64,000 nt of DNA from Roseateles sp. (GTDB lineage: Bacteria; Pseudomonadota; Gammaproteobacteria; Burkholderiales; Burkholderiaceae_C): the NCBI RefSeq assembly GCF_019237615.1, contig NZ_JAFAGT010000048.1, positions 1 to 64,000 of the forward strand. Reading direction: 5' to 3'. The first letter of the stretch is position 1. Each line of letters starts with the position of its first letter. The notes under the pieces are model-generated. The model was not told the DNA's origin. It made no database searches and saw nothing but the letters and a program-made list of their open reading frames with translations. A program made the translations under genes and the position numbers. Shown in pieces: positions 12,768 through 34,163 of this stretch.

Positions 12768-13733
12768 TCAGCGCCGCGAACGCGGGCCGAAGGGCTGGGG
12801 CTCGGTGTCGTAGAAGTGCAGCACCTCGAAGCGCACGCTGGGCGACTGCTCGTCGCCCGGCGGGCCGCCCAGGCCGATGGTGCCGCTGCCGTGCAGCGTG
12901 CAACTGCCGCGCTTGAGGCTGAGCAGTTCGCCCGAGTCGCCGAAGCGCACATAGGTGCCGTTGTAGGACAGGTCGGTCAGCTCGAAGCTGCTGCCCTGCC
13001 AGTCGATGCGGGCATGCGAGCGCGACACGCGGGCGTCGGTGATGCAGTAGGTGGCCTGCACGCTGCGGCCCAGCACGATGGGCATGGCGCCTATGTCGAA
13101 GACGCGGTCCAGGTCCTGCCAGATCAGGCGCATGCCCTCGGGTTCGTTGGAGCGCATCGGCTCGCCGAACTGCGTGGCGGCGGCGTCGGCGCCGGGCAGC
13201 GGCGTGGCGTCCATGCGGTAGACATGGACGGACTCGACGCGGCCGCGCACGGAGATGCGGTCCAGGCTGCGGAAGCGTCCCTTGGACGCGTGGTGCAGGC
13301 CGGCCAGCACCTCGGCCGTGATGAGGATCTCGCCGTCGCCGGCATGGTCGATGAGGCGGGCGGCGACGTTGACGGCGTCGCCGAAGCAGTCGCCGTTGAG
13401 CTCCACGACCTCGCCGCGCGCCAGCGCCACCTGCAGGCGCAGTGCGAGCAGGGCGAGGTCGTTCTGGCGGCGGGCGCGCTGCACGGTCTTCTCCAGCAGC
13501 TCCTGCATGCGCTGGGCCGCGCGCACGCCGTCGCGCGGCGTCTCGAAGGCGGCCATCAGGCCGTCGCCTAGCGTCTTGATGAGCTGGCCGCCGCTCTCCA
13601 GCACGGCTTCGCTGACCTGGCCCACGGTCTGCGTGACCATGGCACTGGCTTCGGCATTGCCCAGGGACTCGTAGAGCCCGGTGCTGCCTCGCAGGTCGGC
13701 GAAGAGGACGGTGCGTTCGCGGATCGCGGTCAT
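12768..13733 (-). CDS. Class III adenylate/guanylate cyclase domain fused to an FHA domain
   Basis: 321-residue cytosolic fusion. Residues about 5-170 are a class III nucleotide cyclase catalytic domain: metal-binding Asp in VLFADLRGSTGLYE, KTLGDGLMAAFE, and GDCFGDAVNVAARL with the transition-state Asn/Arg pair. Residues about 205-305 are an FHA phosphothreonine-binding domain (IVLGRSVQATYCITDARVSRSHARIDW, YNGTYVRFG). The natural inference is a cyclase whose activity or location depends on a Thr-phosphorylated partner, and this window encodes an intact Ser/Thr kinase at 30327-32702. Whether it makes cAMP or cGMP cannot be read off. Confidence 0.88.
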   Translation of the reverse strand: MTAIRERTVLFADLRGSTGLYESLGNAEASAMVTQTVGQVSEAVLESGGQLIKTLGDGLMAAFETPRDGVRAAQRMQELLEKTVQRARRQNDLALLALRLQVALARGEVVELNGDCFGDAVNVAARLIDHAGDGEILITAEVLAGLHHASKGRFRSLDRISVRGRVESVHVYRMDATPLPGADAAATQFGEPMRSNEPEGMRLIWQDLDRVFDIGAMPIVLGRSVQATYCITDARVSRSHARIDWQGSSFELTDLSYNGTYVRFGDSGELLSLKRGSCTLHGSGTIGLGGPPGDEQSPSVRFEVLHFYDTEPQPFGPRSRR

Positions 13734-13755
13734 GTCGAAAGTTTATCGGGCATGG

Positions 13756-13778
13756 AAAAGGCCGGACGAGCCGGCCTT
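13756..13778 (-). terminator. Terminator downstream of rpoD
   Basis: Perfect 8-bp inverted repeat AAGGCCGG / CCGGCCTT with a 5-base loop (13758-13765 and 13771-13778). On the minus strand it ends in a short T-run. It lies about 55 bases past the rpoD stop and ahead of the cyclase-FHA gene. Confidence 0.65.
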
Positions 13779-13832
13779 GGATCCGTTAGGACGACGGGCT
13801 TCGCTTGCGGCGGCCAACGTCCCCGGCCAACC

Positions 13833-16070
<2,238 letters not shown>

Positions 16071-28513: not shown

Positions 28514-30316
28514 GTGTCCCAGTTCGCCGTGCCTGAAACCAGCCCCGTCACCCCACCGCTGAGAAGCTTCGGCCGCTTCGAGCTGCGCGCGCTGCAGTCC
28601 AAGAGCGCGCGCAGCCTGATCTGGCGCGTCTTCGACCCGCGCCAGGGCCAGGAGCTGTTGCTGTGCATGCCGCGCGAGAAGCCCAACAGCGTGGCGGCGC
28701 TGGAGCATTGGCTGCGCATGGCCCAGGCCGGCGAGCGCGTGCAGCACCCCAATCTCGCGCCCGTCTTCGAGATCGGCCAGGTCGAGAGCTGGCCCTATGT
28801 GGCCTACGACCGTACGCTGGGCGAGACGCTGGACGAGCGCCTGGCGCGCCAGGCCGCGCCGCTGCCGGTCGACGCCGCAGGCTGGGTGGCCCAGCTGCTC
28901 GAAGGCCTGGCCTTCGCGCACGAGGCCGGCCATGCCCATCGCGACATCCAGGCCGCCAACGTCCTCATCGACGCCAGCGACAAGGTCTGCCTCATCGGCA
29001 TCGAGGTGGCGCAGGAGGTCTTCCCCCCCGGCGTCGACTACGGCACCGTCACGCGCCGCGCGGTGCGCGATTCTGCCGAGGAGGACGTGCTCTGCGTCGG
29101 CCTGCTGCTGCATCGCCTCCTCACCGGCCGGCCGGTGCTGGAGGAGCATGACCTGCAGCAGGTCGTGCAGCAGATGCAGCCTTCCCCCACGCGCCCGGGC
29201 CGCGAGATCGTGCGCCTGGGCTGGGAGACGCCGCACCCCATTCCCGATCCGCTGCGCGCCATCTGCAACCGCGCGACGGACCGCCAGCTGCGCCAGCGCT
29301 ACCACCTGGCACGCAGTTTCTGGCGCGCGCTGGACGGCTGGCGGCAGGCGGCCGCGTACGACGACGGCGGCCCCATCGTGCTGTTGCTGGACAAGCTGCA
29401 GCGTATCGGGCACCTGCCGACGACGGTCGGCGGCCTGCACCGCTTCGCAGCCGGCGCCAGCCTGGAGGCCCAGCATGCGAGCGCGCTGTCCGAGTTCGTG
29501 CTGAAGGACATGGCGCTCAGCCTGGAGCTGGTGCGCCGTGTCAACCTGGCACTCAAGCAGGCGGGCCACCCGGGCGAGACCGTGCTGAACATGCAGCGCG
29601 CCATCCAGATGCTGGGCCTGGACGGACTGCAGTACGCCATCAACGCGCTCAAGCCCTGGCCCGGCCCGCTGCTGCCGCCCGCCGCCGAGCTGCTGCGCCA
29701 GCTGACGACCCGGGTCGGCAAGGCCGCGCTGGCTGCCCAGGCGCTGCGCCCGGCCGGCTATGACGCCGAGGTCGTCCACCTCATCGCCGTCATGCAGAAC
29801 CTCGGCCGCCTGATGGTGCAGTACCACTTCCCGGACGATGCCCAGCAGATCCGCCAGCTGATGGTGCCGCCCGAGCCTACCGAGGACCAGCCCAACCCGC
29901 CCGGCATGAGCGAGCAGGCGGCGGCCTACGCCGTGCTGGGCTGCGACCTGGACGCGCTCGGTGCCGCCGTGGCCCGGCATTGGGGACTGGGCGACGAGCT
30001 GCTGCAGATGATCCGCCGGCAGCCGCTGGGGGCAGCCGTGCACCCGAGCCGCAGCGATGCCGACGTCATCCGCCTGACCTGCAGCCTCGCCAACGAGTTG
30101 GTCGACGCTCAGGACCTGCCCGACGCGCGCCGCCGCCCGGCGCTGGAGGCGGCGACGCGACGCTATGCCAAGGCGCTGGGCATAGGCCTGCGAGAGGTCA
30201 CCGAGGCGCTCAACCCGGGCGCACCCAAGCCGCCCTCGGTGGCGGCATCCCAGCCGTCCGAAGGCGCCGCGCCGGCGGGTTCGCCGCGCGAGCAGCTGTC
30301 GGCCCGCGGGGCCTGA
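28514..30316 (+). CDS. Pseudokinase-HDOD signalling protein
   Basis: 600-residue protein starting at a GTG. Residues about 15-275 follow a Ser/Thr kinase fold but lack key parts: the nucleotide lysine position reads LLLCMPRE, there is no glycine-rich loop, and the DFG motif is replaced by LIGIEV, although HRDIQAANVLID (the catalytic loop) is retained. Residues about 295-490 are an HDOD domain (LKDMALSLELVRRVNLAL, LIAVMQNLGRLMVQYHFP), an HD-GYP-related fold usually lacking phosphodiesterase residues. The tail is Ala/Pro-rich. Its stop is 10 bases before the next gene, an active kinase of the same architecture, so the two probably act together. Confidence 0.87.
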   Translation: MSQFAVPETSPVTPPLRSFGRFELRALQSKSARSLIWRVFDPRQGQELLLCMPREKPNSVAALEHWLRMAQAGERVQHPNLAPVFEIGQVESWPYVAYDRTLGETLDERLARQAAPLPVDAAGWVAQLLEGLAFAHEAGHAHRDIQAANVLIDASDKVCLIGIEVAQEVFPPGVDYGTVTRRAVRDSAEEDVLCVGLLLHRLLTGRPVLEEHDLQQVVQQMQPSPTRPGREIVRLGWETPHPIPDPLRAICNRATDRQLRQRYHLARSFWRALDGWRQAAAYDDGGPIVLLLDKLQRIGHLPTTVGGLHRFAAGASLEAQHASALSEFVLKDMALSLELVRRVNLALKQAGHPGETVLNMQRAIQMLGLDGLQYAINALKPWPGPLLPPAAELLRQLTTRVGKAALAAQALRPAGYDAEVVHLIAVMQNLGRLMVQYHFPDDAQQIRQLMVPPEPTEDQPNPPGMSEQAAAYAVLGCDLDALGAAVARHWGLGDELLQMIRRQPLGAAVHPSRSDADVIRLTCSLANELVDAQDLPDARRRPALEAATRRYAKALGIGLREVTEALNPGAPKPPSVAASQPSEGAAPAGSPREQLSARGA

Positions 30317-30326
30317 AGCTGGCACC

Positions 30327-32702
30327 ATGGCCGACGAACTGCCCCCCCAACTCGGCCGCTTCCGGCTGCTGAAGCGCCTTGGGGAAGGCGCGCAGGCGAC
30401 GGTCTGGCTGGCGCATGACCCACTGCTGGACCGCGAGGTCGCCGTCAAGCTGCTCAAGCCCGCGGCCGAGCCCGGCAGCGTCGACGAATGGCTGCACGAG
30501 GCCCGTGCCGTCAGCCGGCTGACCCATCCCAACATCGTCCCCGTCTTCGAGGCTGACAGCCAGGCCGGGCATTCCTATCTCGTCTTCGAGTACGTGTCTG
30601 GCGGCACGCTGAGCCAGCGCCTGCGCGCCGGCCCGCGGCCAACGGCTGCCGAAGCCGTCACGTTGATGCTGGGCATCCTGGACGGCCTCACCGCCGCCCA
30701 TGCCGCCGGCCTGGTGCACCGCGACCTCAAGCCCAGCAACATCCTGCTCGATGCCAGCGGCCGGCCGCGCGTGATGGACTTCGGCATCGCGGCGCGGGTG
30801 TCCACCGACGCCAGCGCGCCCTCGCGCATCGTCGGCACGCCCGGCTACATCTCTCCCGAGGCTGCGCGTGGCGCGCCGCCGCATCCGCTGATGGACGTGT
30901 TCGCGGCCGCCGTCATGCTGGCCGAGATGCTGAGCGGTCAGCGCCTCAACCAGGACCCCGATCCCTGGCGCGCCGTCCAGCGCGTGCAGACCACCCAGCT
31001 CATGCTGCCTGCGGGCCTGGACGCCGGCGTGGACGACGCACTGCGCGCCATCGTGCAGCGCGGCCTGGCGCGGGAGGCGTCGGCGCGCTGGCCCAGCGCC
31101 GCGCTGCTGCGTGACGCGCTCGCCACCTGGCTGCGCCCCGTCGCCGATCCCGATGCGCAGCAGGACGCGCCTGTGCTGGACTTCCTGCTGCGCCGCATGC
31201 GCCACAAGAGCGACTTCCCGGCTCTGTCCGATGCCATCGGCCGCATCCAGCGCCTGACGCAGTCCGAGCACGAGAGCGTGGCCAACCTGTCCAACGAGAT
31301 CCTGAAGGACGTGGCGCTGACGCAGAAGTTGCTGCGCCTGGTCAACACGGCGCAGTACCGGCATGCGGGCAGCGGCGGCATAGGCACGGTGTCGCGCGCG
31401 GTCGCGCTGATCGGCTTTGCCGGCATCCGCAACCTGGCGCTGAGTCTGGTGCTGCTGGAGCGCATGGAGAACAAGGGCCATGCCAAGCGCCTGCGCGAGG
31501 ACTACCTGCGCTCGCTGATGGCGGCGTCGCTGGCGCGCGAGCTCTGCAGCAACCCGCGCGAGGCCGAGGAGGCCTTCCTCGGCGCCATGTTCCACCACCT
31601 CGGCCGCTCGCTGACCGAGTTCTACTTTCCCGAGGAGGCCGAGGCCGTGCGCCGCCTCGTCGGGCCCACGGAGGACGGCCAGCCCGCCACCAGCGAAGAG
31701 GCCGCATCGGCCCAGGTGCTGGGCATGAGCTACGAGGCCCTGGGCCTGGGCGTGGCCCGCCAGTGGGGCCTGCCCGCCAGCCTGCAGCGCGCCATGCATC
31801 GCCCCGCAGGCGAGGCGCCGCAGCGCCTGCTGGAAGACGCCACCGAGCGCCAGCGCTGGCTGGCGCGCGCGAGCAACGACATGGCGGACCTCATCCTCGA
31901 CACGCCGCCCGAGCAGGCCCATGCCAGGCTGCGTGCCCTGGCCCAGCGCCATGCGCGGGCCCTGGGCCTGAGTGCCGACGCATTCGAGCAGGCCGCCGAC
32001 ACCGCGCGCCAGCATCTCGCGCAGATGACCGAGGCACTGGACCTGCGCCTGCCACGCGACTCGCGCGCCCAGCGCCTGCTCGCGCCGCTGACGCCCTCGA
32101 TGCATGACTCGCTGACCGAGCATGAGCTTGTTCCCACGCTGGTGATGGAGCGCACACAGGACGCCGCCGCCTCGCCCGCGGAGCAGGCCACCCAGCTGCT
32201 GGCAGCCGGCGTGCAGGACATCACCGACGCCATGGTCGACAACTTCCAGCTCAACGCCGTGCTGCGCATGATCCTGGAGACCATCTACCGCGCGCTGGGC
32301 TTTCGCCGCGTCATCTTCTGCCTGCGCGACGCGCGTGGCCAGGCGCTGACGGGGCGGCTGGGCGTCGGCGCCGACGTGGAGCGCCTCGCGCCGTTGCTAC
32401 GGGTGGACCTGACGACCCAGCCGCCGGACCTCATCGCCGCCGTCTGCCTGAAGGGGGTGGACACGCTGATCCAGGATGCCCGCACATCCAACATCACCTC
32501 GCGGCTGCCTGGCTGGTTCCGCGGCGAGCTGCAGGCGCAGAGCTTCCTGCTGCTGCCCCTCTTCCTCAAGGGCTCGCCGCTGGGGCTGATCTACGCGGAC
32601 CATCCTCGGGCCGGCGCCGTGCAGCTGGGCGACAAGGAGTTGTCGCTGCTGCGCACGCTGCGCAACCAGGCTGTCATGGCCTTCCGCCAGGCCACGGGCT
32701 GA
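30327..32702 (+). CDS. Ser/Thr protein kinase-HDOD-GAF signalling protein
   Basis: 791-residue protein. The kinase domain (about 10-270) has all main motifs: LGEGAQATVW, the lysine in EVAVKLLKP, HRDLKPSNILLD, MDFGIAA and GTPGYISPEA. An HDOD domain (about 290-490) has ILKDVALTQKLLRLVN and AMFHHLGRSLTEFYFPEE. A GAF domain (about 630-785) ends the protein (DNFQLNAVLRMILETIYRALGFRRVIFCL, FLKGSPLGLIYADH). No membrane segment is evident, so it is cytosolic. It is 10 bases downstream of the pseudokinase-HDOD gene and likely its partner. Possible targets include FHA proteins such as the cyclase-FHA at 12768-13733 (inference). Confidence 0.92.
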   Translation: MADELPPQLGRFRLLKRLGEGAQATVWLAHDPLLDREVAVKLLKPAAEPGSVDEWLHEARAVSRLTHPNIVPVFEADSQAGHSYLVFEYVSGGTLSQRLRAGPRPTAAEAVTLMLGILDGLTAAHAAGLVHRDLKPSNILLDASGRPRVMDFGIAARVSTDASAPSRIVGTPGYISPEAARGAPPHPLMDVFAAAVMLAEMLSGQRLNQDPDPWRAVQRVQTTQLMLPAGLDAGVDDALRAIVQRGLAREASARWPSAALLRDALATWLRPVADPDAQQDAPVLDFLLRRMRHKSDFPALSDAIGRIQRLTQSEHESVANLSNEILKDVALTQKLLRLVNTAQYRHAGSGGIGTVSRAVALIGFAGIRNLALSLVLLERMENKGHAKRLREDYLRSLMAASLARELCSNPREAEEAFLGAMFHHLGRSLTEFYFPEEAEAVRRLVGPTEDGQPATSEEAASAQVLGMSYEALGLGVARQWGLPASLQRAMHRPAGEAPQRLLEDATERQRWLARASNDMADLILDTPPEQAHARLRALAQRHARALGLSADAFEQAADTARQHLAQMTEALDLRLPRDSRAQRLLAPLTPSMHDSLTEHELVPTLVMERTQDAAASPAEQATQLLAAGVQDITDAMVDNFQLNAVLRMILETIYRALGFRRVIFCLRDARGQALTGRLGVGADVERLAPLLRVDLTTQPPDLIAAVCLKGVDTLIQDARTSNITSRLPGWFRGELQAQSFLLLPLFLKGSPLGLIYADHPRAGAVQLGDKELSLLRTLRNQAVMAFRQATG

Positions 32703-32872: not shown

Positions 32873-33241
32873 ATGAATCCCCATTCGATGAACGGCCGGG
32901 CGGGGGTGATGGCGGTATTGGCCGCCGCCGCGCTGGCCGCATGCTCGACGACGGGCGATGCGCCCAAGGCACAGCTGGCCGTGGCCAACGCCGCGGTTGA
33001 CCAGGCCACCGGCAACGCCGCCGAGGCGCCGGCCGAACTGTCCGGAGCTCGTGACAAGCTGGCCCGCGCCAACGCCGCGATGGCCCGCAAGGACTATGTG
33101 GCCGCCCGCCAACTGGCTGACGAGGCCGCCGCCGATGCGGCCCTGGCCCAGGCCAGCGCCCGCTCGGCCCGCTCCAGCCGCGCGCTGGCCGAGGTGCGCG
33201 AAAGCATCCAGCAGCTGCAGGCGCAGCTGAACCCCTCCTGA
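32873..33241 (+). CDS. DUF4398-type lipoprotein
   Basis: 122-residue exported protein with a lipobox (AALAACSTT, lipidated Cys near residue 24). The mature part is Ala-rich and predicted all-helical, with the DUF4398 pattern (ARDKLARANAAMARKDYVAARQLADEAAADAALAQA). The ATG at 32873 follows a GGGAG ribosome site; longer in-frame starts lack a signal peptide. The next gene, 22 bases downstream, has the same helical module fused to OmpA, so the two probably form an envelope pair linking outer membrane and peptidoglycan. Confidence 0.85.
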   Translation: MNPHSMNGRAGVMAVLAAAALAACSTTGDAPKAQLAVANAAVDQATGNAAEAPAELSGARDKLARANAAMARKDYVAARQLADEAAADAALAQASARSARSSRALAEVRESIQQLQAQLNPS

Positions 33242-33263
33242 CCCCCTCGAAAGGACTGCCATC

Positions 33264-34163
33264 ATGCAATCCGCCCGCTTCGCTTCCGCCCTGACCGCCG
33301 CCGCGGCCGCGGCCTTGCTGGCCGGCTGCGCCGGCGCGCCCACCGTCACCCCAGCGCTGCAGCAGGCGCGCGCCAATGTCGGCGCCGCCGAGGCCGACCC
33401 GGCCGTGCTGAAGTACGCCTCGCTGGACGTCAAGAAGGCGGCCGACTCGCTGCGTCGCGCCGAGGAGCTCAGCGCCAGGCGCGAGTCCCTGGCCGACATC
33501 GACTCTGCCGCCTACGTCGCTTCCACCCAGGCCCGCACCGCGATGGCCATAGGCCGGGCGGCGACCGACGAAGAGGCCATCAAGGCCGCCGAGGCCGACC
33601 GCGAACGCGCCCGAGCCGATGCAAACGCCAGGCGTGCCAATGTCGCCCAGGCCCAGGCCGCCAATGCCAGCGCGGACGCCAATGCCGCGCGCCAACAGGC
33701 CGCCGCCGCCAACGCGGACGCCGCCCAGGCCCAGGCCCAGGCCGCTGCGCTGCAGCGGGAGCTGGCCGAGTTGCAGGCCCGGCAGACCGACCGCGGCATG
33801 CTTGTCACGCTGGGCGACGTGCTGTTCGAGTTCGGTCGTGCAGACATCAAGCCCGCGGCGCAGGGCGCCATCGGCAAGCTGGCCGGCTACCTGAACCAGC
33901 ATCCCGATCGCCGCGTGCTGATCGAGGGCTTCACCGACAGCATCGGCAGCGACGCGGTCAACATGGCACTCTCGCAGCGCCGCTCCCAGGCCGTGGCCGA
34001 TGCGTTGCGCGCCCGCGGTGTCGACCCGACCCGCATCGCGACGCGCGGCTACGGCGAGGCTTATCCGGTGGCCGGCAATTCGAGTTCGTCCGACCGCGCG
34101 ATGAACCGTCGCGTCGAGGTCTATATCTCGAACGACGACCAGCCTGTGCGCGCGCGCGGCTGA
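33264..34163 (+). CDS. DUF4398-OmpA-family outer-membrane/peptidoglycan-binding lipoprotein
   Basis: 299-residue protein. The signal peptide ends in a lipobox (LLAGCAG, Cys near residue 22). Residues about 30-180 are an Ala/Gln-rich coiled-coil region of DUF4398 type. Residues about 190-299 are an OmpA C-terminal domain (VLFEFGRADIKPAAQGAIGKLA, IEGFTDSIGSDAVNMALSQRRSQAVADAL) that binds meso-diaminopimelate in peptidoglycan. It pairs with the preceding DUF4398 lipoprotein. Confidence 0.92.
   Translation: MQSARFASALTAAAAAALLAGCAGAPTVTPALQQARANVGAAEADPAVLKYASLDVKKAADSLRRAEELSARRESLADIDSAAYVASTQARTAMAIGRAATDEEAIKAAEADRERARADANARRANVAQAQAANASADANAARQQAAAANADAAQAQAQAAALQRELAELQARQTDRGMLVTLGDVLFEFGRADIKPAAQGAIGKLAGYLNQHPDRRVLIEGFTDSIGSDAVNMALSQRRSQAVADALRARGVDPTRIATRGYGEAYPVAGNSSSSDRAMNRRVEVYISNDDQPVRARG

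Follow-up and report, generated by a model that had tools for sequence, protein, structure and literature searches.

We have analysed a stretch of 64,000 nucleotides (hereafter the window) of contig NZ_JAFAGT010000048.1 from Roseateles sp., which carries two consecutive genes that combine a kinase fold with an HDOD domain, all of their features being on the + strand. Gene 1 (28514-30316, GTG start) codes for a pseudokinase-HDOD protein of 600 amino acids and gene 2 (30327-32702, ATG start) for an active-type Ser/Thr kinase-HDOD-GAF protein of 791 amino acids, both assigned by open reading frame (ORF), Pfam and alignment. A spacer of 10 bases (30317-30326) separates the stop of the first from the start of the second. 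In gene 1 the kinase-fold domain (28565-29353, approximately residues 18-280) is followed by HDOD (29417-30022, residues 302-503), and in gene 2 the kinase domain (30363-31133, approximately residues 13-269) is followed by HDOD (31218-31799, residues 298-491) and GAF (32250-32681, residues 642-785). This arrangement is the one described in an earlier note on this DNA and its observation is confirmed. The interpretation given there, that of a pseudokinase serving as allosteric partner of its active paralogue, was partly supported. As judged from sequence, gene 1 looks like a new pseudokinase family and a bacterial pseudokinase regulator that is found with and without gene 2.

Sequence features of the two proteins

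All five domain matches were above the Pfam cut-offs. The gene 1 protein matched Pkinase at 8.9e-12 (residues 65-263) and HDOD at 9.5e-13 (302-503), its Pfam matches being kinase-type models and HDOD only, and the gene 2 protein matched Pkinase at 1.8e-41 (13-219), HDOD at 2.8e-31 (298-491) and GAF at 6.1e-9 (642-785). The HDOD model (PF08668, cut-off 22.9 bits) scored 48.5 bits in gene 1 and 109 bits in gene 2. No NCBIfam model reached its cut-off for either protein. They are approximately 29-32% identical to each other. Among named organisms gene 1 has its closest relatives in Roseateles and Pelomonas records (80-83% identity).

Residues were counted in an alignment of 66 gene-1 and 61 gene-2 proteins from the taxonomic family of the window. 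Gene 2 in the window has the motifs GEGAQATV, VAVK, HRDLKPSN, DFG and SPE, as the earlier note had said, and is predicted from them to be an active Hanks-type kinase, with Gly-loop, beta3 Lys, HRD Asp, DFG Asp and APE positions all in place. The Lys and both Asp are present in 60 or 61 of the 61 gene-2 rows, the odd row being locus L125 (see below). Gene 1 lacks this set. None of its 66 rows has the beta3 Lys, which is replaced by Cys (Cys51 in the window), Thr, Val and others, with a gap in one row, and the DFG Asp is lost throughout (Gly in 49, Ala in 15, Pro in 2; Gly162 in the window), with Glu at the third DFG position in 34/66. The APE region is also lost and the activation segment is shortened, the median distance from the DFG position to the alphaF Asp being 30 residues in gene 1 vs 38 in gene 2. 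The Gly-loop glycines are gone from the window copy, the first of them being found in 44/66 rows, and residue 30 at a Gly-loop position is basic (Lys in 52 and Arg in 8 of 60 rows; Lys30 in the window). The claim that the first gene had lost the catalytic motifs holds for all of these, but not for the HRD motif, with H in 63/66 and D in 61/66 (Asp144 in the window). The catalytic-loop Lys is replaced by Gln in 55/66, and the Asn that follows HRD in the window's gene 1 occurs in 7/66 and is not a family feature. Gene 1 is thus predicted to be without the residues needed for Mg-ATP chemistry, yet one catalytic residue, the HRD Asp, is conserved.

The His-Asp doublet of HD and HD-GYP phosphodiesterases is missing from most rows of both genes, as anticipated in the earlier note; its two columns hold Q (65/66) and N (53/66) in gene 1 and Q (44/61) and N (48/61) in gene 2, neither HDOD domain of the window having an HD doublet. 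No membrane segment is obvious in either protein (the 19-residue Kyte-Doolittle mean peaks at 1.45 in gene 1 and at 2.04, at residue 359 within HDOD, in gene 2) and both are probably cytosolic. The AlphaFold2 model of gene 1 had a mean predicted local distance difference test score (pLDDT) of 92 and a predicted template-modelling score (pTM) of 0.88. The Foldseek matches listed for it were kinase-fold chains and, among the 50 listed, the best target-normalised template-modelling (TM) score was 0.73, for the kinase-homology domain of MviN (Rv3910, 3uqc_D, rank 12 by E-value). The gene 2 model (pLDDT 83, pTM 0.46), in which the pLDDT drops below 50 in stretches within residues 276-359 and at 593-613, matched PknB with a Foldseek score of up to 0.88.

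Distribution and evolution of the pair

A search with gene 1 gave some match at 1e-5 in 142 of 200 family genomes, although many among the matches listed were to the kinase or the HDOD part alone. We examined 81 loci (L numbers), 80 from matching family genomes (G numbers) and the one in the window. Both genes were found in 48 of them, in 34 genus codes, always adjacent and on the same strand, so that the pair the earlier note had proposed to look for is conserved beyond close relatives. The estimated spacing was between -22 and +102 bases in 46 of these and -2189 and 870 in the others, all from automatic start estimates, and in L070, L087, L092, L093 and L100 the stop of gene 1 and the estimated start of gene 2 overlap by 4 bases. 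In L070 (genome G193) the pair is followed on the same strand by a third HDOD protein (13454-15004 of that locus), which is related to residues 275-791 of gene 2 and has HDOD as its only Pfam match.

Gene 1 was found alone in 20 loci (14 genus codes), that is, in 20 of the 68 gene-1 loci there is no gene 2 beside it; two of them are close to a contig edge, L071 ending 916 and L098 1,797 bases downstream. The pseudokinase does not always come with the kinase, as it would in an obligate pair. The remaining 13 loci have the gene-2 type only, a number that leaves out G010, G095 and G187, genomes with a gene-2-type best match. L106 and L111 have a gene 1 that is split over different frames; L106 has a broken gene 2 as well, a hint of an assembly error. 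In a collection of named relatives the best 80 loci of at least 365 relatives included 58 with both genes, 20 in which gene 1 was alone and 3 kb or more of downstream sequence was present, and 2 undecided ones at contig ends. The pair is present in Rubrivivax gelatinosus (L208) and Roseateles saccharophilus (L168), whereas in Aquabacterium commune (L242) gene 1 lacks an adjacent gene 2.

When the whole genomes of the 20 gene-1-only loci were searched with gene 2 at 1e-30, no match spanned kinase, HDOD and GAF. The kinase plus HDOD matches were gene 1 itself, the remaining ones were kinase-only or HDOD-GAF stretches, and G081 and G185 gave no match at all at that threshold. Several of these assemblies are in few contigs (G060 2, G058 3, G183 4, G081 6), indicating that missing sequence is not the general reason for the absence of gene 2. 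Outside the family the gene-1 type was not seen. In a class sample of 369 genomes 27 matched at 1e-20, 25 of them from other families, and none of the 19 of these 25 whose loci were read had it. In a phylum sample of 398 genomes six matched at 1e-40, and the only gene-1 types by score were the genome of the window and G091 from the same family.

Gene 1 formed a single clade with a Shimodaira-Hasegawa-like approximate likelihood ratio test (SH-aLRT) support of 100 in a quick tree of 45 of the 65 gene-1 rows rooted on 18 homologues from the class. A more careful tree was built with 65 gene-1 proteins, 46 labelled as paired and 18 as solo, with L071 unlabelled and L106, L111 and L118 left out. 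On it the pair/solo state changed 10 times (9-10 in the 5-95% bootstrap range), at least 6 of the changes being forced by well-supported branches. One genus code (g98) includes both states, the pair in G199 and a lone gene 1 in G098, and these two are sister rows with 100/100 support. The count of changes cannot by itself separate gain from loss, and the early branches are weakly resolved, with some long rows. Repeated loss of gene 2 with retention of gene 1 would be the simplest reading, since gene 1 is one clade and no such type was seen outside the family.

The ratio of non-synonymous to synonymous substitution rates (dN/dS, Nei-Gojobori method, for pairs chosen for closeness) was well below 1 with and without gene 2. 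In the pseudokinase domain it was 0.04-0.24 in eight paired and 0.07-0.40 in six solo comparisons, and in HDOD 0.02-0.24 and 0.04-0.45, respectively.

The genes identified around the pair or around gene 1 code for an HrpA (hrpA) or UvrD helicase, a PurM-like AIRS protein, dnaX, recR, a PhoB/PhoR-like two-component pair and a lytic transglycosylase. The hrpA name of the window neighbour was assigned from the window sequence and several neighbour clusters had no Pfam match. The upstream neighbour varies by clade, being hrpA in one and the UvrD helicase in others. Downstream of the pair (32873-34163 of the window) there are two consecutive DUF4398 proteins, the second with an OmpA domain. PADLOC models of defence systems matched both proteins, but mainly over the generic kinase domain, and with housekeeping neighbours we rejected a defence role. 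The host genome (4.80 Mb in 108 contigs) has 11 Pkinase and 9 HDOD matches. A phosphatase dedicated to the pair was also rejected, all four PP2C matches of the genome being on other contigs, three of them adjoining other kinases (contigs C14, C22 and C27).

Other degenerate kinases and known families

Loss of the kinase was also found on the side of gene 2. We read 20 further HDOD-GAF loci of the family, picked for a match without a clear kinase part or for a weak match. In 14 there was no detectable kinase, in 4 (L248, L249, L251 and L262) the HDOD-GAF protein was fronted by fragments of a former kinase, and in 2 (L266 and L267) the kinase was full length, L266 reading DFS in place of DFG. 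In a quick tree of the HDOD domain (106 rows), 10 of the 14 kinase-less rows and all 4 rows with fragments fell inside the gene-2 clade (support of 97 for 71 of its rows); the kinase-less L256, L259, L261 and L263 formed a separate long-branched group. The "no kinase" label required five changes on this tree, two of them forced by well-supported branches, and more than one loss on the gene-2 side is likely.

Two more degenerate kinases retain the rest of the architecture. L125 (8902-11151 of that locus) has a degenerate kinase with HDOD and GAF and, as is the case for many gene-1 copies, follows a UvrD helicase. It branched at the base of gene 1 twice (96 on the quick gene-1 tree and 87 on the HDOD tree), although the join was flagged as a long-branch one where L125 was used as outgroup, and it may be an intermediate form or the result of a separate conversion. 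L144 (6896-9292 of that locus), a kinase-HDOD-GAF-like protein from another family in which the beta3 Lys is Arg, HRD reads HGA and DFG reads GLG, is by these residues a predicted independent pseudokinase. Catalysis seems to have been dispensable more than once while HDOD was retained, and from this repeated pattern we infer that HDOD is likely the output and the kinase fold its regulator.

The kinase-HDOD(-GAF) proteins from other families of the class are homologous to gene 2, 14 of their 22 listed ORFs matching from the kinase through GAF. Unlike the window, none of 20 regions had a gene-1-type partner beside them. In L134 two active-type copies lie next to each other, in seven cases the GAF part is missing, and L144 is degenerate as described above. 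Kinase-HDOD architectures are probably listed in domain databases. No description of a pseudokinase-HDOD protein beside an active kinase was found in the open-licence literature, in line with the earlier note, which knew of no such system, although an absence with this scope is weak evidence.

The features given for bacterial pseudokinase families in a 2025 review (PMC12599244), the text of which does not contain the word HDOD, do not fit gene 1, which is set apart by the family descriptions there. The ActPs3 (MviN-like) pseudokinases are described as having lost the catalytic motifs completely and as often bearing a transmembrane region at the C-terminus, and gene 1 has the HRD Asp in 61/66 and a hydropathy maximum of 1.45. 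With MviN itself (Rv3910 of Mycobacterium tuberculosis, with PknB as kinase) gene 1 would share the role of a Hanks-type pseudokinase as non-catalytic regulator, which is what we propose for it, and a deletion in the activation loop. MviN is, however, a transmembrane protein, whereas gene 1 has no obvious transmembrane stretch, carries HDOD and lies beside an active-type paralogue. The GLW pseudokinases are described with GLW in place of HRD and a transmembrane region, and gene 1 keeps H (63/66) and D (61/66) in those columns. The DLHK pseudokinases of proteobacteria share some features with it, being described without a transmembrane region, with the HRD Asp kept and with Lys and DFG degraded, but they have a conserved Asn after HRD, which gene 1 has in 7/66, and are often linked to helicase/DNA2 domains, whereas gene 1 has kinase-type models and HDOD as its only Pfam matches.

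The relocated-lysine kinases such as POMK and WNK also have a basic Gly-loop residue and no beta3 Lys. In POMK the Gly-loop Lys is described as paired with an acidic residue at the DFG position (PMC12599244). Gene 1 differs in having no metal-binding Asp at DFG, with Glu at the third DFG position in 34/66. On the HDOD side, SadB, GsmR, HdpA and PSPTO_4229 are regulatory HDOD proteins without phosphodiesterase activity (PMC6543031, PMC11813219, PMC11004494), a property that gene 1 would share by its missing doublet, and none of them is given a kinase domain in the descriptions excerpted from those papers. HDOD proteins have been linked there and in PMC6416229 to motility or cyclic diguanylate (c-di-GMP).

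Possible roles of gene 1

The persistence of the dead copy in several lineages without an intact one suggests that gene 1 has a job of its own. We consider it an HDOD regulator without catalytic function that is able to act by itself and for which the kinase is an optional input, a reading to which we would give roughly even chances. In this scenario an ancestral kinase-HDOD-GAF gene would have been duplicated once within the family, giving tandem paralogues, and the upstream copy would have lost the catalytic Lys, the DFG Asp, part of the activation segment and GAF to become a pseudokinase-HDOD regulator. The gene 1 protein would then serve as a scaffold without catalysis; its pseudokinase domain would bind a ligand or a partner and place HDOD as the output, a function put forward by analogy with the HDOD proteins that affect motility. 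Where gene 2 is present, its GAF domain may sense a small ligand and tune its own kinase, which would be an optional upstream input on or beside gene 1, phosphorylating either gene 1 or a common HDOD target. In lineages that lack the kinase, gene 1 would function by itself. A looser functional link between the two is likely, from their arrangement, where both occur.

The explanation closest to the earlier note is that gene 1 exists to activate or inhibit gene 2 allosterically, as a heterodimer. The two genes are adjacent and co-directional in 48/48 loci with both, the 4-base start/stop overlaps of some pairs fit translational coupling, and the search of the gene-1-only genomes gave no case of the two lying apart. 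Gene 1 is, however, retained without gene 2 in 20/68 loci, recurrently on the tree and with dN/dS below 1, so that a role dependent on the active paralogue, such as the partner suggested in the earlier note might have, is not supported. The N-lobe dimer face may point the same way, against a standard heterodimer. L33 and V95 of PknB belong to what we take to be the back-to-back dimer face of bacterial kinases, the column of V95 being a tentative assignment. The L33 column is Leu in 60/61 gene-2 rows vs 14/66 gene-1 rows, and the column assigned to V95 is Val in 61/61 gene-2 rows and mostly Ala, Arg, Gly or Ser in gene 1, Val not being among the six letters listed. Leu and Val are fixed in gene 2 and not kept in gene 1, although gene 1 could bind gene 2 in another way. 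With the recurrent solo copies, the dN/dS values and the loss of the kinase on the gene-2 side as well, an obligate allosteric partnership is disfavoured, and we regard this purpose for gene 1 as unlikely.

A minor but real possibility is that the two functions are independent, the genes being ancient tandem duplicates kept side by side by inertia, with the pseudokinase serving another partner. Gene 1 occurs alone, gene-2 types are alone in 13 loci and the identity between the two is only about 30%; against this, the adjacency holds even though the upstream neighbour differs by clade (hrpA vs UvrD helicase), and some columns are less conserved in solo copies (see below). Another alternative follows MviN, whose phosphorylated tail recruits FhaA (PMC12599244): gene 1 would be a pseudokinase substrate, phosphorylated by gene 2, that then recruits a reader protein. 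The MviN domain 3uqc_D does have the highest target-normalised TM (0.73) among the 50 matches listed, but no FHA protein was found among the selected neighbours of the pair that were scanned, the genome not having been searched for FHA, and gene 1 without gene 2 would require another kinase. We consider this mode quite improbable. That gene 1 is a decaying pseudogene is scarcely credible in spite of the lost catalytic residues and the frame breaks in 2/68 loci (L106 and L111), being already contradicted by a long open frame in the other loci, a dN/dS well below 1 and a confident fold model.

Several points weigh against gene 1 as a regulator able to work alone. Some gene-1-only lineages branch early and weakly, and a few of the pair/solo changes might not be losses. 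L256, L259, L261 and L263 may, by their place on the HDOD tree, be a different and older HDOD-GAF family that was never orthologous to gene 2. The adjacency in 48/48 loci could be mere inertia of the tandem duplication, and the conserved neighbours examined, being housekeeping genes, gave no clue to a pathway. As for constraint, three of the six solo dN/dS values of the pseudokinase domain (0.31, 0.35 and 0.40) exceed all eight paired ones. A comparison of 45 paired and 15 solo rows (60 of 65, without L071, L107, L110, L112 and L113, which are at contig edges or on long branches) gave 136 columns conserved at 90% or more in paired rows, of which 111 hold at 75% or more in solo rows and 25 fall below; in the reverse comparison 12 of 105 solo-conserved columns were below 75% in paired rows. 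Selected residues had suggested that paired and solo copies are equally conserved, but this all-column count (25/136 vs 12/105) does not support it. The constraint on gene 1 may be somewhat relaxed once the kinase is gone.

The weaker columns include Lys30 (Lys in 10/15 solo rows, Arg in the rest) and Gln146, and 15 of the 25 are at residues 330-515 (29501-30058 of the window), in and near HDOD. They could mark a surface of contact with gene 2, as an allosteric partner would have, and are a lead, not a proof, for such a possible gene-2-facing surface. The solo rows are more scattered, often on longer and earlier branches, which confounds the comparison of conservation between paired and solo copies, and the 25-column result is too weak to shift the weighing of the rival models.

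A bolder version of the solitary regulator, which we hold to be rather doubtful, is that gene 1 founds a pseudokinase family turned into a metal-independent sensor of a ligand, perhaps a nucleotide. Lys/Arg30, Asp144, Gln146 and the invariant Arg54 would form a new pocket acting as a switch for the HDOD output. The kinase-HDOD architecture would then be a workshop in which catalysis is repeatedly discarded (gene 1; L125; L144; the fragments of L248, L249, L251 and L262) and the fold or the HDOD output kept.

A role is known for few bacterial pseudokinases. The one described here is found both alongside its active-type paralogue and in its absence, even inside a single genus code, which makes the question of whether a pseudokinase needs its kinase directly testable in cultured bacteria, and would offer a first handle on the role of HDOD next to Ser/Thr kinases.

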